Shown here piece after piece: positions 1 to 5,844 of a stretch of DNA of 64,000 nucleotides. The translations under genes were made by a program, and so were the position numbers. Source of the DNA: Thermocatellispora tengchongensis. Lineage in GTDB: Bacteria > Actinomycetota > Actinomycetes > Streptosporangiales > Streptosporangiaceae. Numbering within the stretch: the first letter of the stretch is position 1; each line of letters opens with the position of its first letter. Location: contig NZ_JACHGN010000001.1 of the NCBI RefSeq assembly GCF_014202315.1, forward strand, positions 85,757 through 149,756, read 5' to 3'. Under the pieces are notes generated by a model, which saw only the letters and a list, made by a program, of their open reading frames with translations, did no database searches and was not told the origin of the DNA.

Positions 1-443
1 TTCTTGGCGTGGAACTTCTCGTTCCAGTAGCAGACGCGGGCCTGCACGGTCTCCACGTCGTGCTCCCAGGCGTGGAAGTACTTGTAGCCGTTGGAGCCGC
101 ACTTCTTGGCCCAGTAGGTCTTCTCGTCGCCGTGCTCGTCCTCGAACTTGATCTGGACGTAGCCGCACAGCCACCAGGGCGAGTGCTTGTCGTAGAGCTT
201 GCCCTCGACGTGCACCTTGTCGCCGTGGCTCCACACGCGGCCGTGCGCCTTGGCCCGGGAGTCGTGAGCCCACTTGGAGTAGGACGGGCCCCAGTACTCG
301 TCGTAGTCGTAGCCGGAGGCGGTCGCGGTGGCAGAGGCGGCGGCCGGGGTGGCGGCGTTGGCGGCGGTGGCGGGCAGGGCCAGGGCGAACGCGGTGGCGC
401 TGACGGCGGCGATCCCGAGAAGGGTGCGGGTCGTACGACGCAT
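1..443 (-). CDS. Secreted protein, function unknown (3' end outside window)
   Basis: The reading frame starts at an ATG at 443 with a good ribosome-binding site (AAGGAG, 9 nt upstream) and runs off the left edge after 147 codons without a stop. The first ~30 residues are a classic Sec signal peptide: basic MRRTTRT, a hydrophobic Leu/Ala core and an Ala-x-Ala-type end (ATAANAA). The exported part is rich in Trp, Tyr, His and Lys, contains three Cys in the visible portion (in WLCGY, KKCGS, RVCYW), and has no motif I recognise. The composition suggests a small extracellular beta-rich protein. It is transcribed away from the SARP gene at 867. Known: nothing. Inference: secreted, possibly disulfide-bonded. 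Confidence 0.8.
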   Translation of the reverse strand, partial: MRRTTRTLLGIAAVSATAFALALPATAANAATPAAASATATASGYDYDEYWGPSYSKWAHDSRAKAHGRVWSHGDKVHVEGKLYDKHSPWWLCGYVQIKFEDEHGDEKTYWAKKCGSNGYKYFHAWEHDVETVQARVCYWNEKFHAK

Positions 444-611
444 TTCGGTTTTCTCCTTTTGGTGAGGGCGATCCCCGCTCGGGGGAGGCAGATCCATTGA
501 TAGGCCGCCCCGCCTGCACGCCGCTTACAGCCCGTTTACGCGAACCTGCAATCCGCTGTCTCCGGCCTTGCCGTACGCCGAGCCGGACGACCGGCCTCGC
601 TCGGACACGCG

Positions 612-641
612 CAGGGCCCGCACTGACGAGTGCGGGCCCTG
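612..641. terminator. Perfect 13-bp GC-rich hairpin
   Basis: Arms 612-624 and 629-641 (CAGGGCCCGCACT and its exact complement) flank a GACG loop. There is no U tract. It looks like an actinomycete terminator but lies in a divergent intergenic region, where no terminator is expected. It could end an unseen small transcript or shape a long leader. Confidence 0.5.
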
Positions 642-667
642 AACCAGCCGGTCTTTCGGATATGTGG

Positions 668-706
668 AAGGCATGGCCGCCCCCGTGTCACTCGGGGCCA
701 TGCCTT
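668..706. terminator. Second hairpin, 11-bp outer stem plus inner stem
   Basis: Arms 668-678 (AAGGCATGGCC) and 696-706 (GGCCATGCCTT) are exact complements. An inner CCCCG/CGGGG pairing extends the stem. A short TTTCGTTG follows. It lies 27 nt after the first hairpin, so the two form a tandem terminator-like unit on the + strand, upstream of the SARP promoter region. Confidence 0.5.
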
Positions 707-734
707 TCGTTGTCTCCACGGTCTCCCAGGGCGC

Positions 735-772
735 TCAATACCGGATCAACACCGGATCAACGCTGCGTGAAC
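735..772 (+). promoter_or_regulatory. Probable SARP operator: four direct repeats at 11-bp pitch
   Basis: TCAAT (735), TCAAC (746), TCAAC (757) and TGAAC (768) recur with exactly 11-bp spacing; the two middle units are both preceded by ACCGGA or CCGGA. SARP and AfsR DNA-binding domains are known to bind such heptameric direct repeats at one-helical-turn pitch on one face of DNA. The site is 95 nt before the SARP start codon, so autoregulation is the simplest inference. Confidence 0.65.
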
Positions 773-866
773 CGGCCGCCGACCACACAACCCGTGCCTT
801 CGAGGTAAGCATCGAAGGATCTATGCTTTTGGCCAAGAAACTTCCCATTGGGGTCGGAGTGGCGAA

Positions 867-3800
867 ATGGCTGTTCAGGGCATGGAAGGCGGACTGCGGT
901 TCGCCGTGCTCGGCCCTGTCCAGGCCTGGCGCGACGGCGTGGAGCTCGATCTGGGCACCCCGTTACAGCGATCCATCCTGGCGATGCTGCTGCTGCGTGA
1001 GGGCCGGGCGGTCACTCCCGGCGAGATGATCGACGCGGTGTGGGGGGAGGAGGCGCCGCCGCGGGCGCTGGGCGCGCTGCGTACGTACGTGTCGCGGCTG
1101 CGCACCGTGCTCGAACCCGACCGGTCGCCGCGCAGCCGCCCGGAGCTGCTGACCTCGGTGGGCCGCGGCTACGCGCTGCGACTGCCCGACGGCGCCCTGG
1201 ACCTGACCCTGTTCGAGCGGGACGTCGCCAGGGCGGAGGCCGCGCGCCGGGCCGGCCGGCCGGAGGAGGCCGCCCGGTTCCTGCGCGAGGCGCTGGGCCG
1301 GGGCGGCGGCGAGCCGCTGGCCGGAGCCGTCGGCCCGTACGCCGAGCACCAGCGCAACCGGCTGGCCGAGCGGCGGATGGCCGTGACCGAGGCGCTGGCG
1401 GACGTCGATCTGCTGCTCGGCAGGCACAGCGAGATCCTGCCCGACCTGATCGCGCTGACCGCCGAGCACCCGCTGCGCGAGCGGCTGCGGGCGCAGCTCA
1501 TGCTCGCCTACTACCGGTGCGGGCGGCAGGCCGACGCGCTGGCGGTGTTCGCCGACACCCGGCAGGCGCTGATCGACGAGCTGGGCGTGGACCCGGGCCC
1601 GGAGCTGACCGCGCTGCACCAGCGCATCCTGGCCGCCGATCCCGCGCTCGCGGTCCCCCCGCGCCAGGCCGAGCCCGCGTCCGCGCAGGCCGAGGAGGCG
1701 GGCGAGGCGGAGCAGGACCCGCCGGAGGTCGAGGAGCTGCCGCGCCCGGCCCAGCTTCCCGCCGCGGTGCCCGACTTCACCGGCCGCCGCGAGGTCGTCA
1801 ACCGCCTCCGCACGCTGCTCGCCGGGCCGGGCGGCGCCGAGGGGGTGCCGGTGGCGGCGATCTGCGGCATCGGCGGGGTCGGCAAGACCACGCTGGCCGT
1901 GCACGTGGCCCACGCCGCCGGCGACCTGTACCCCGACGGCCAGCTCTACGCCGACCTGCGCGCGTACGGCGACGAGGCCGCCGACTCCGCGCTGCGCGCC
2001 TTCCTGCGCGCACTGGGCATCCCGGCCGACATCATCCCCGAGGGCCGGGCCGAGCGGGCGGCGCTGTACCGGTCGCTGCTGGCCGAGCGGCGCATGCTGG
2101 TGCTGCTGGACAACGCCCAGAGCACCGAGCAGGTGGCGCCGCTGCTGCCGGGCGCCCCGGGCTGCGCGGCGATCGTGACCAGCCGGAGCAAGCTGGCCGA
2201 CCTGCCCGCGGCCCGCCTGTTCGACCTGGACGTGATGGAGCCGGACGAGGCGCTGGCGCTGTTCTCGGCGGTGGCCGGGCCGGAGCGGGTGGCGGCCGAG
2301 CGGGCGGCGGCGATGGACGTGGTGGCCGCGTGCGGGTTCCTGCCGCTGGCGGTGCGGATCGTGGCGGCGCGGCTCGCGGCCCGGCCCGGCTGGACGGTGG
2401 CCTCACTGGTGCCCCGGCTGGCCGACGAGCGCCGCCGCCTGGACGAGCTGCGGGTCGGCGGGCTGGCGGTGGACGCGACCTTCGCCCTCGGCTACGGCCA
2501 GCTCGACCCGGCCCAGGCGCGGGCGTTCCGGCTGCTGTCGCTGGCCGGCGGGCCGGACGTGTCGCTGGGCGCGGCCGGGGCGATGCTGGACCGCGAGGCG
2601 CACGAGGCCGAGGACCTGCTGGAGTCGCTGGTGGACGCGAGCCTGCTGGAGGCCCCCGCGCCCGGCCGGTACCGCTTCCACGACCTGCTGAAGCTGTTCG
2701 CCCGCCGCGAGGCGGAGGCGTCGGAGCACCCGGACGCCCGCGAGCAGGCGCTGGCCCGGCTGCTCGGCTTCTACCTGGCCTCGGCGGCGCAGGCGCACCG
2801 GCTGGCGTACGAGGGCAGCCAGATCGCCGACCACCTGGCCGTGCGCGGGGCGACCGGGCGCACGTTCGGCGGCGCGGACGAGGCCGTGGAGTGGCTGAGC
2901 GTCGAGGCCGACGCGCTGTTCGCGGTGCTCGGCCAGGCCGTGGCCCGCGCCGGGGCGGCCGGGGAGAGCGGCGCGTCCGGTGCGCTGCTGCCGGCGGCCG
3001 ACCTGCTGGTGGCGATGGAGCCGCTGCTGGAATCGGGCACGCACATGCGCGAGTTCGACCGGCACGCCCGCGACCTGCTGGCCGCCGCGCGCCGGGCGGG
3101 CGACGGCCCCAGCGAGGTGCGCGTGCGGTACGTGCTGGGCCGGGTGCTGTTCGGCGCGAACATGCTCGCCGAGGCCGAGGAGCAGTTCCGCGCCTCGCTC
3201 GACCTGGCCGGCGCGCTGGGCGAGCGGGTCGTCATCGGCGAGACCATGAACGCGATGGCGGTCGTGGCCGGCCGGCAGCGCCGCCACCACGAGGCGCTGG
3301 CCTGGTTCGACGCGGCCACCAAGGTCTACCGCGAGATGAACGCCCCGGCCGGCGAGGCGCTGGTGCTCAGCTACTCCGCCCGCGACCACCTGGGGCTGGG
3401 CCACCCGGAGGACGCCATCGCCGCCGCCGAGCAGGGCCTGGCCATCTTCCTGGACATCGGCAGCGGCGCGGGCATCGCGCGGGCGAGGTACCACCTCGGC
3501 ATCGTGTTGTCGCGGGTCGGCCGGCTGAACGAGGCGGTGCACCACCACGCCGAGTGCCTGGCCTTCTTCCGGGCCAGCAACCAGCGGGTCTGGGAGCAGA
3601 GGGTGTGCACCAGGCTGGCCGAGACGTTCATCGCCGCCGAGCGCTTCCAGGACGCCGTACGCCACGCGGAGCAGGCCCTGACGGTGAGCCGGGAGATCGG
3701 CCATCCCTACGGCGAGGCGCAGTCACTGTTCGTGCTCGGCCGGGCCCTGGCCGGGCTCGGCGGCGCCGCCAGGAGCCGCGAGTGCTTCGACCGGGCCCAC

Positions 3801-3878
3801 GCCCTGTTCGCCCGCATCGGCGCCCCCGAGGCCGACGACCTGCGCGCCCTCCTCGACCGCGACGGGGTCAAGAGCTAA
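867..3878 (+). CDS. AfsR/SARP-family transcriptional regulator (wHTH-BTAD-NB-ARC-TPR)
   Basis: A 1003-aa large SARP, the architecture of AfsR. Residues ~10-90 are an OmpR-like winged helix (LGTPLQRSILAMLLL, then an AVWGEEAPPRA recognition region), and ~97-245 the bacterial activation domain (BTAD). A Pro/Glu-rich linker follows. The STAND/NB-ARC ATPase starts near 300, with P-loop GIGGVGKTT at ~333-341 and the Walker B MLVLLDNA near 415. The C-terminal third is TPR repeats that usually sense ligands or partners. AfsR homologues activate secondary-metabolism or stress genes after binding 11-bp direct repeats. The first ATG at 867 has GGAG 7 nt upstream; an in-frame ATG at 882 is the alternative. 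The gene stands alone, with a matching repeat operator upstream (735-772) and another repeat array 290 nt downstream of its stop. The target genes are not evident here. Confidence 0.93.
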   Translation: MAVQGMEGGLRFAVLGPVQAWRDGVELDLGTPLQRSILAMLLLREGRAVTPGEMIDAVWGEEAPPRALGALRTYVSRLRTVLEPDRSPRSRPELLTSVGRGYALRLPDGALDLTLFERDVARAEAARRAGRPEEAARFLREALGRGGGEPLAGAVGPYAEHQRNRLAERRMAVTEALADVDLLLGRHSEILPDLIALTAEHPLRERLRAQLMLAYYRCGRQADALAVFADTRQALIDELGVDPGPELTALHQRILAADPALAVPPRQAEPASAQAEEAGEAEQDPPEVEELPRPAQLPAAVPDFTGRREVVNRLRTLLAGPGGAEGVPVAAICGIGGVGKTTLAVHVAHAAGDLYPDGQLYADLRAYGDEAADSALRAFLRALGIPADIIPEGRAERAALYRSLLAERRMLVLLDNAQSTEQVAPLLPGAPGCAAIVTSRSKLADLPAARLFDLDVMEPDEALALFSAVAGPERVAAERAAAMDVVAACGFLPLAVRIVAARLAARPGWTVASLVPRLADERRRLDELRVGGLAVDATFALGYGQLDPAQARAFRLLSLAGGPDVSLGAAGAMLDREAHEAEDLLESLVDASLLEAPAPGRYRFHDLLKLFARREAEASEHPDAREQALARLLGFYLASAAQAHRLAYEGSQIADHLAVRGATGRTFGGADEAVEWLSVEADALFAVLGQAVARAGAAGESGASGALLPAADLLVAMEPLLESGTHMREFDRHARDLLAAARRAGDGPSEVRVRYVLGRVLFGANMLAEAEEQFRASLDLAGALGERVVIGETMNAMAVVAGRQRRHHEALAWFDAATKVYREMNAPAGEALVLSYSARDHLGLGHPEDAIAAAEQGLAIFLDIGSGAGIARARYHLGIVLSRVGRLNEAVHHHAECLAFFRASNQRVWEQRVCTRLAETFIAAERFQDAVRHAEQALTVSREIGHPYGEAQSLFVLGRALAGLGGAARSRECFDRAHALFARIGAPEADDLRALLDRDGVKS

Positions 3879-3981
3879 CGGGCCGAGATCCCGGAACAGG
3901 TCGTCGTCCAGCCGCGTCATACGCACGTGGTTGATCACCATTGCGCTCCCGTTCTGACCGTGTGATCCCCGTGCGCCCGTC

Positions 3982-4018
3982 GTATACGGTGCCCGACCCT
4001 TGTATACGGTGCCCGACC
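3982..4018. repeat. Tandem direct repeat of 17 bp at 20-bp period
   Basis: GTATACGGTGCCCGACC occurs at 3982-3998 and again at 4002-4018, separated by 3 nt. GTATAC is itself palindromic. It lies between the convergent SARP and methyltransferase genes. It may be a recent duplication or a two-site operator; no promoter is visible next to it. Confidence 0.6.
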
Positions 4019-4169
4019 GGCCATCTCACCGCCGCGTGGAGCTAGGGGGCCCGGATCACCGGATGCCACACGCGACGGCTAGCCGCCTCACTTCGACGGC
4101 CGGCCGGGCCTGGCACGGACCTCGAACCCCCCGGGTCCCTGCCACGGCACTCAGCTTGGCGCGGCCTGC

Positions 4170-4196
4170 TCAACGTCGGATCAACGCCCGATCAAC
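4170..4196 (+). promoter_or_regulatory. Second SARP-like direct-repeat array (three units, 11-bp pitch)
   Basis: TCAAC occurs at 4170, 4181 and 4192, exactly 11 bp apart, with GGA or CGA before the second and third copies as in the array at 735-772. It lies downstream of both flanking genes, in the 337-nt convergent gap 3879-4215, so no obvious promoter is served. The rest of this gap shows no gene. Confidence 0.5.
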
Positions 4197-4215
4197 ACCG
4201 CGCCGGGCGGGCGGG

Positions 4216-5673
4216 TCAGAGGGTGAAGAAGCCCTCCGCGATCAGGGCGCGGACGGCGGCGGGGGTGGAGGCGCGCAGCTCGGCGGGGTCGCCGCCGGTC
4301 AGCTCGGCGATGGCGTCGAGGAGCGGGGCGAGCGGGAGGGTGCCGTCCACGACGCCGGCGAGCGCCGCCTCGACCGTGCCCACCGCCGCCGTACGCCGCA
4401 GCCCGCGCGTCTGCCGCAGCACGATCCGGGCCGGGTCCTCGGCCCCGGGCGGGCCGGAGCGCTCCTCGGTCACCCCCTCGGCCACGGCCGGGCAGGCGGC
4501 CAGCAGCTCCTCGTCGGTGAGCCGGTGGGCCGCCCCGATGGCGTCCAGCACGCCGGACACGTAGCCGCCGACGGGCAGCTCGACCCGCTGGGTCAGCTCC
4601 TCCACCCGCACCACCGGGTCGAGGGTGCCGGAGTCGCGCAGCGTGATCCAGCCGAAGCCGACGCCGGTGACGTCCATCGCCTCCAGCCGGCCCAGCCAGG
4701 CGTCGTAGCGCTCGGCGTAGCGGGGGGTGCCGTGCTCGGCGGAGTCGCGCAGCCACAGCTCGACGTACTCGGCCGGGTCCTGGACGTCGCGCTGCACCGC
4801 CCAGCCGTCCAGGCCGGTCTCGGCCAGCCAGCCGCCCACGCGGTCGCGCCAGTCCTCGCCCTTGACGTGCAGCCAGTTGGCCAGCAGGTGGGCGTATCCG
4901 CCGGGGGCCAGGTGGCGGGGCGCGAGGCGGACGAGGTGGCGGCAGAAGCCGTCGGCGTCCTCGCCGGACTCGCGGTAGGTGAGCCCGCCGCCGGGGGCGA
5001 TCACGAACGGCGGGTTGGACACGATCAGGTCGAACCGCTCGCCCTCGACCGGCTCGTACATGGCGCCCTGCCGGGCCTCGACCTCGGCGCGCTCGTGCAC
5101 GCCGGACAGCCGCCAGGTCAGCGCGGCCAGCTCCAGGGCGCGCGGGTTGACGTCGGTGGCCACGATCCGCCGGGCGCGGCCGGCGAGGTGCACGACCTGC
5201 ACGCCGCAGCCGGTGCCGAGGTCGAGCGCCCGCTCGGCGGGGGCGCGGGCGGCGAGCTGGGCCAGGTTGGCGGACGCGCCGCCCGCGCCGACGACGTGGT
5301 CGGTGCGCAGCGGCGGGTCGCCGGGGCGCACCTTGCGGTCGGAGACGAGGTAGCCGCCCTCCTCCCAGGGCTGCAGGTGCACCGCGGCGCGTACGGCGGT
5401 GCCGTGCTCGGCCGTGAGCAGCCCCGACTCGACGAGCCCGGCCACGGGGAGCGGCAGCTCGGCCGCCTCGACCGGGACGCCCAGCCACCACAGCCGGATC
5501 AGCGCGGCGAGCGCGTCGCCGTCGCGGGTGGCGCGCAGGGCGGGGACCAGCTCCTCGCGGGCGAGCGCGGAGGCGGCGACGTCGCCGAGGCGTTCGCGCA
5601 CCCCGTCGAGGGTGTAGCCGGATTCGAGCAGGCGGTCGCGGAGGCGGTCCAGCAGAGCTTCGGGCACGTTCAT
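4216..5673 (-). CDS. Class I SAM-dependent methyltransferase with NPPF motif
   Basis: A 485-aa protein. An N-terminal all-alpha domain of ~140 residues precedes a Rossmann methyltransferase: motif I LDLGTGCGV near residue 150, an acidic VATDVNPRA strand, and the NPPF catalytic motif (FDLIVSNPPFVI) near 218. NPPY/NPPF is known from PrmC/HemK (glutamine), RsmC/RlmG and N6-adenine methyltransferases, where it binds the planar amide or amine being methylated. The substrate cannot be told here. The C-terminal ~200 residues are family specific. The start at 5673 is preferred over 5718 or 5682 because GAGG lies 9 nt upstream. The gene is monocistronic. Weakest point: protein versus rRNA substrate. 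Confidence 0.85.
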   Translation of the reverse strand: MNVPEALLDRLRDRLLESGYTLDGVRERLGDVAASALAREELVPALRATRDGDALAALIRLWWLGVPVEAAELPLPVAGLVESGLLTAEHGTAVRAAVHLQPWEEGGYLVSDRKVRPGDPPLRTDHVVGAGGASANLAQLAARAPAERALDLGTGCGVQVVHLAGRARRIVATDVNPRALELAALTWRLSGVHERAEVEARQGAMYEPVEGERFDLIVSNPPFVIAPGGGLTYRESGEDADGFCRHLVRLAPRHLAPGGYAHLLANWLHVKGEDWRDRVGGWLAETGLDGWAVQRDVQDPAEYVELWLRDSAEHGTPRYAERYDAWLGRLEAMDVTGVGFGWITLRDSGTLDPVVRVEELTQRVELPVGGYVSGVLDAIGAAHRLTDEELLAACPAVAEGVTEERSGPPGAEDPARIVLRQTRGLRRTAAVGTVEAALAGVVDGTLPLAPLLDAIAELTGGDPAELRASTPAAVRALIAEGFFTL

Positions 5674-5844
5674 CCCCACCATCCTCGCACCGCCCGGCCC
5701 CGCTGGGCGCGATGCCACGATGTGACGGACGGCACCTTACCGGTTACATAACGACGCAAGTGTTCTGCAAGTGGCGGTTAAGTGGATCGCGATACCTATG
5801 TCGATAGCCGCCACACTGCCGTCCCGACAAGGAGCGGATCCACG

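Follow-up and report, generated by a model that had tools for sequence, protein, structure and literature searches.

The four pentamers that precede a SARP-type regulatory gene of Thermocatellispora tengchongensis at a pitch of 11 bp raise the question of which transcript they serve and which protein binds them. The original prediction took the regulator to be of the AfsR type and the repeats to be a SARP operator through which it controls itself. We analysed the whole stretch of 64,000 nucleotides around the gene (the window), the complete genome and the orthologous loci of related actinomycetes. The gene matches Streptomyces AfsR (8k60, 8jke) over residues 6-999 with an E value of 6.7e-245, that is, in full length over about 1000 aa and with the domain order of AfsR, as expected of a large SARP. 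Its residues T73/R77 align with T88/R92, the DNA-contact residues of AfsR (PMC10936776), which are thus conserved. Judged by its sequence, the gene is a full-length AfsR orthologue, more than a plain SARP, and the assignment to the AfsR type was confirmed. The pentamers were found as described, on the plus strand as TCAAT at 735, TCAAC at 746, TCAAC at 757 and TGAAC at 768. The features of the locus are listed in Table 1.

Table 1. Position and strand of the features assigned or predicted at the afsR locus of T. tengchongensis (coordinates of the window)
Feature	Position	Strand	Remarks
Predicted UP RNA	612..711	-	hairpin 668-706 (5', G-rich bulge) followed by palindromic hairpin 612-641; start and end inferred
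UP -10-like hexamer GACCGT	718..723	-	11 bp after last repeat
UP array (putative afs boxes)	735..772	-	minus-strand reading GTTCA / GTTGATC / GTTGATC / ATTGA, 11-bp pitch
Predicted afsR -10, TATGCT	822..827	+	most orthologues have TATCAT; start codon about 45 nt downstream
afsR orthologue	867..3878	+	Trans_reg_C + BTAD + NB-ARC + TPR, 1003 aa
Putative microprotein ORF, 72 aa, MVINHVRMTRLDDDLF...	3723..3941	-	ATG 3941; family start position GTG 3938
DN RNA, predicted structured, about 138 nt	4011..4148	-	conserved; G6 loop in hairpin 1, internal C5 in the long hairpin that follows
DN -10-like hexamer CAAGCT	4153..4158	-
DN array (putative afs boxes)	4170..4196	-	GTTGATC / GTTGATC / GTTGA, 11-bp pitch
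Methyltransferase-like gene (DUF7059 + MTS)	4216..5718	-	stop just before DN box

Two arrays flanking afsR

The upstream (UP) array is accompanied by a downstream (DN) array, TCAACGTCGGATCAACGCCCGATCAAC, which was absent from the original prediction; it is situated beyond afsR, on its 3' side, and directly after the stop of the convergent methyltransferase-like gene. With up to two mismatches, the three-repeat pattern had four matches in the 64-kb window against 0.32 expected from shuffles, three of the four overlapping one another inside the UP array. The genome-wide search that had been proposed for the repeats located the exact three-repeat pattern in five places, belonging to four arrays, in the 11.65-Mb genome, and two of these arrays flank afsR. 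A tighter pattern, TCAAYRNCNRATCAAY, gave four exact matches in the genome, every one in the UP or the DN array.

Both arrays recur in relatives. The orthologue set comprised 80 loci with a best-segment identity of 68-80%, nearly all of them from Streptosporangiaceae genomes; one locus with too little upstream DNA was excluded from the scoring of UP arrays, and three loci with no methyltransferase match from that of DN arrays. The score exceeded the 99th percentile of shuffled sequence in 67/79 UP regions (opposite strand 0/79) and in 71/77 DN regions at the methyltransferase end (opposite strand 0/77), figures which are descriptive since the consensus used was composed after viewing the sequences. 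Seven Herbidospora loci were among the 12/79 that failed at UP, and all seven passed at DN, where 6/77 failed. In genome G012 the downstream array is located about 3 kb from afsR, yet it still stands beside the methyltransferase stop.

Direction of the boxes and their probable binding protein

On the minus strand, a hexamer of the form xAnnnT follows GTTGA by 11 bp. At exactly the offset known from the afsS promoter it was present in 64/67 UP and 70/72 DN sites (counting the window and excluding sites whose flank was too short; the two misregistered downstream sites were dropped from one follow-on analysis), and at other offsets from -4 to +4 in at most 3/67 and 4/72 sites, respectively. When the DN arrays were aligned on the first repeat, 97% of 71 sites had A at -17 and an equal share had T at -13, which on the minus strand make up this hexamer. 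The afsS promoter carries a 22-bp box of two 11-bp repeats at -40 to -19 and the -10 hexamer CACTGT (PMC10936776), which is weak, as both -10-like hexamers of our locus are. The spacing rule of afs boxes (repeats ending 6 bp before the -10; boxes at -40 to -19, -10 at -12 to -7) was found to hold on the minus strand only. Similarly, the canonical SARP geometry, with the 3' repeat 8 bp from the -10, was exact on the minus strand and absent towards afsR. Of the SARP operator geometry originally proposed, the repeats one helical turn apart were therefore retained, whereas the 8-bp spacing belongs to the strand opposite to that of afsR, and an operator directed at afsR was not borne out, the register fitting transcription away from the gene. 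We rejected the idea that the DN array is a promoter on the plus strand leading into the methyltransferase gene, as no conserved -10 was found downstream of the repeats.

The minus-strand repeat consensus is CGTTGATCSGN. When it was compared with the AfsR box CGTT(T/C)ATCGNN, as given in a review (PMC10972967), every specified base fitted except position 5, which is G here; the last G appears as C or G. The pattern of box plus hexamer was present at two places of the 11.6-Mb genome, 718-750 and 4153-4185, and is directed away from afsR at both. Written as GTTNATCNNNNRTTNA-N12-ANNNT, it detected exactly these two sites, the UP and DN arrays (control 0), and in 20 genomes it gave 22 matches in 16 genomes, with none for the reversed-pattern control and none (0/20) when the spacing was one base longer. 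By coordinates, 18 of the 22 matches are at the afsR locus or its detached unit, two in G057 (one at its afsS promoter, the other ahead of a phosphate-transporter-like gene) and two, AT-rich, in G073. The pattern GTTNATCNNNNGTTNA-N12-ANNNT also fits the promoter of a small afsS-like ORF downstream of the G057 AfsR homologue (52% identity), where GTTCATCG and GTTTATCG precede CACTGT. Relative to the hexamer, our repeats occupy the same bases as these afsS-type repeats. Since both sequence and geometry match the afsS promoter, we assign the UP and DN arrays as afs boxes of the AfsR orthologue facing away from its own gene.

The alternative that the UP array acts on the plus strand as the operator for AfsR control of afsR appears rather unlikely. 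Such control is favoured by the place of the array, 132 bp upstream of the start of afsR, and by its conservation in that place. It is also favoured by the spacing to the afsR -10, which was found in 66 sites: in 41 of them 54 or 55 bp separate it from the third repeat, and in the window the distance is longer by one turn (65 bp). The afsR -10 itself is strongly conserved across orthologues, usually 45 nt ahead of the start codon. However, a distance of 54 or 55 bp in most sites and of at least 136 bp in 6/66 means that the canonical 8-bp SARP rule is missed towards afsR, and the same array with its -10-like neighbour recurs downstream of afsR, where it is unable to drive the gene. AfsR may act on its own gene from the UP site, since the site is in the afsR upstream region. 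A -10 of afsR placed 8 bp after the repeats was rejected, none being conserved there by eye, and a scan of positions 450-900 for sigma-70 promoters and terminators returned nothing.

PhoP as the binding protein is very unlikely, although several features would suit it. PHO boxes of Streptomyces are 11-nt direct repeats as well and overlap AfsR sites (PMC6988585), G at repeat position 5 favours PhoP according to section 8 of that review, and the second pattern match in G057 (locus L229, about 1501-1533) precedes a gene named by eye as phosphate-transporter-like, which fits the AfsR/PhoP overlap. The reading of the arrays as PHO boxes is kept alive by this overlap together with the G at position 5. 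Nevertheless, the PHO core is GTTCACC (PMC6988585) as against GTTGATC here, the T. tengchongensis genome holds no further exact site, unlike a Pho regulon, and array and RNA follow AfsR in their distribution: 12/18 genomes with an afsR orthologue, and 0/25 without one, had the array at the 3' end of the methyltransferase gene.

More repeats with an 11-bp pitch (GTAAACGGGCT GTAAGCGGCGT GCAGGCGGGGC) were observed before TATCAAT at 440-560 on the minus strand, in the leader of a gene for a small secreted protein (3-497, minus strand) which has no Pfam match and adjoins afsR in only some relatives. They are perhaps the operator of another SARP.

Predicted RNAs and microprotein

The DN hexamer is followed on the same strand by a conserved structured RNA (DN RNA). 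In an alignment of 44 of the 70 downstream RNAs (53 were non-redundant, nine of which were omitted for brevity), two-sided changes were found in 19 of the 35 predicted pairs, in 122 cells; none of 500 shuffles scored as high, and slid controls gave 3 to 11 pairs. The minus-strand reading contains 160 G-U cells against 26 A-C cells, which would be G-U on the plus strand, so the RNA is assigned to the minus strand in agreement with the promoter direction. The G6 loop and the C5 segment can pair in 214/220 cells; because these columns barely vary, the possible pseudoknot was rejected as covariation evidence. A search of window positions 450-4300 against Rfam 15 with E up to 5 gave a single hit, a miRNA model with 18.8 bits inside afsR, which is not credible, and a tRNA or known Rfam RNA in the region was rejected, none being credible.

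A covariance model detected the DN RNA in 19/61 genomes of the family, in one copy each. These 19 are also the genomes whose afsR orthologue reaches about 72% identity or more, G005 being counted among them with three pieces of 73-75% identity that fall below the orthologue cut. In a class-wide sample the RNA was found in 9/246 genomes, all Streptosporangiaceae. Genome G074 passes the orthologue cut through a 50% partial match to AfsR, lacks the RNA and was not counted as having an orthologue. Its own afs-box arrays (L145, about 1500-1530; L191, about 1450-1485) adjoin NB-ARC/TPR genes, again just past a stop codon.

Downstream of the DN RNA and on its strand lies a small ORF whose opening, (V/L/M)-INHV[W/R]MTRLDD, is conserved in 76/81 loci, with the start codons TTG (43), GTG (30) and ATG (3). 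The entropy by codon position (0.28/0.07/0.86 bits) indicates conservation at the codon level with freedom of the third position. The ORF was recognized by its motif in 17 of the 19 loci with the RNA, and in G005 additionally by a profile. In 394 genomes of the class, 18 matches to the microprotein were obtained, 16 of them in Streptosporangiaceae and the other two weak (E 0.008 and 0.010). Four microproteins were assigned to no family by Pfam and NCBIfam. At 3974-4013, after the DN RNA and ahead of the start of the microprotein, a 20-bp sequence ending in GTATACGGTGCC is repeated in tandem with 85% identity.

In G012, the box, the RNA and an ATG-started ORF of 61 aa are found together about 3 kb from afsR, and the three therefore appear to form a unit independent of afsR. 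That the DN region serves solely as a bidirectional terminator for two convergent genes, with the microprotein arising by accident opposite the afsR 3' end, is highly improbable: convergent stops do flank the region in most loci, and in most genomes the ORF runs antisense to the afsR 3' end in its own 3' part, but the conserved loops, the two-sided covariation, the occurrence in one copy and only alongside AfsR, and N-terminal microprotein codons that have third-position freedom outside afsR all argue against it, and the detached unit of G012 disfavours an antisense artefact.

For the UP box the predicted transcript is a G-rich hairpin RNA. A run of G followed by C[G/T] in a predicted hairpin occurs within 78 nt downstream in 64/65 sites that have the hexamer. 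This hairpin has 104 G-U against 32 A-C cells, a weaker strand bias than that of the DN RNA, and its outer pairs are ragged. The palindromic hairpin at 612-641 could terminate a UP RNA of about 100 nt. In some relatives the second UP hairpin has its T-run on the other strand, so it may be the terminator of another gene. The seven Herbidospora loci without a UP box keep the DN unit, which suggests that the UP RNA is dispensable in evolution.

Proposed AfsR output outside Streptomyces

We consider it probable that AfsR activates two divergent transcripts, UP and DN, as the non-Streptomyces counterpart of AfsR-afsS. AfsR would bind the UP and DN afs boxes, each in front of a weak minus-strand -10; because both stand at the AfsR/afsS geometry, the bound protein would recruit RNA polymerase for transcription running away from afsR. 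A short hairpin RNA would be formed from the UP box, and from the DN box a structured leader RNA of about 140 nt followed by the same-strand microprotein M-INHV[W/R]MTRLDD[E/D]L..., which would hold the place of Streptomyces afsS. The leader RNA could control translation of the microprotein. This scheme is supported by sequence evidence, namely the repeats and their register, conservation, covariation in the RNA, conservation of the microprotein at the codon level and co-occurrence with AfsR; from this evidence we infer AfsR binding, activation, transcript ends, translation and any effect on afsR. The wider proposal, that outside Streptomyces AfsR uses an undescribed output module in which one of two divergent afs-box promoters yields a G-rich hairpin RNA and the other a structured leader of a new class, in which G6 and C5 may form a pseudoknot and which controls translation of a new microprotein family that functionally replaces AfsS, has in our estimate an even chance of being correct.

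The system resembles AfsR-afsS of Streptomyces in the AfsR orthologue, the direct repeats GTTNATCG, the identical -10 register and a small target gene beside afsR. It differs in having two boxes beside afsR, both directed away from it, a target that is convergent with afsR instead of co-directional, a structured leader RNA ahead of this target, and G at repeat position 5. Similarity of the microprotein to AfsS was not found in a BLASTP comparison with the AfsS-like ORF of L022, the single such ORF compared (11.9 bits, E 1.1). The nearest described RNA, judged by its description, is the asfR motif (PMC11109978), which likewise is a structured RNA by prediction and adjoins a gene; the name of this gene is spelled asfR there, with an afsR paper given as reference. 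As described in that source, it is restricted to Streptomyces, lies upstream of asfR and forms a three-stem junction, whereas the DN RNA lies downstream of afsR on the opposite strand, has two main stems and belongs to Streptosporangiaceae.

A literature search which covered subscription titles in part gave no report of AfsR operators, an RNA or a microprotein at the afsR locus in Streptosporangiaceae, and within the same scope neither the action of AfsR in other actinomycetes nor a replacement of AfsS there was found. In Streptomyces, AfsR acts as a master switch of antibiotic production, and the Streptosporangiaceae include genera known for antibiotics, such as Nonomuraea, Planobispora and Microbispora. 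The output of AfsR in this family may be small and local enough for testing, consisting of two promoters, two RNAs and one microprotein. The locus also provides a candidate structured RNA and might give access to silent gene clusters.
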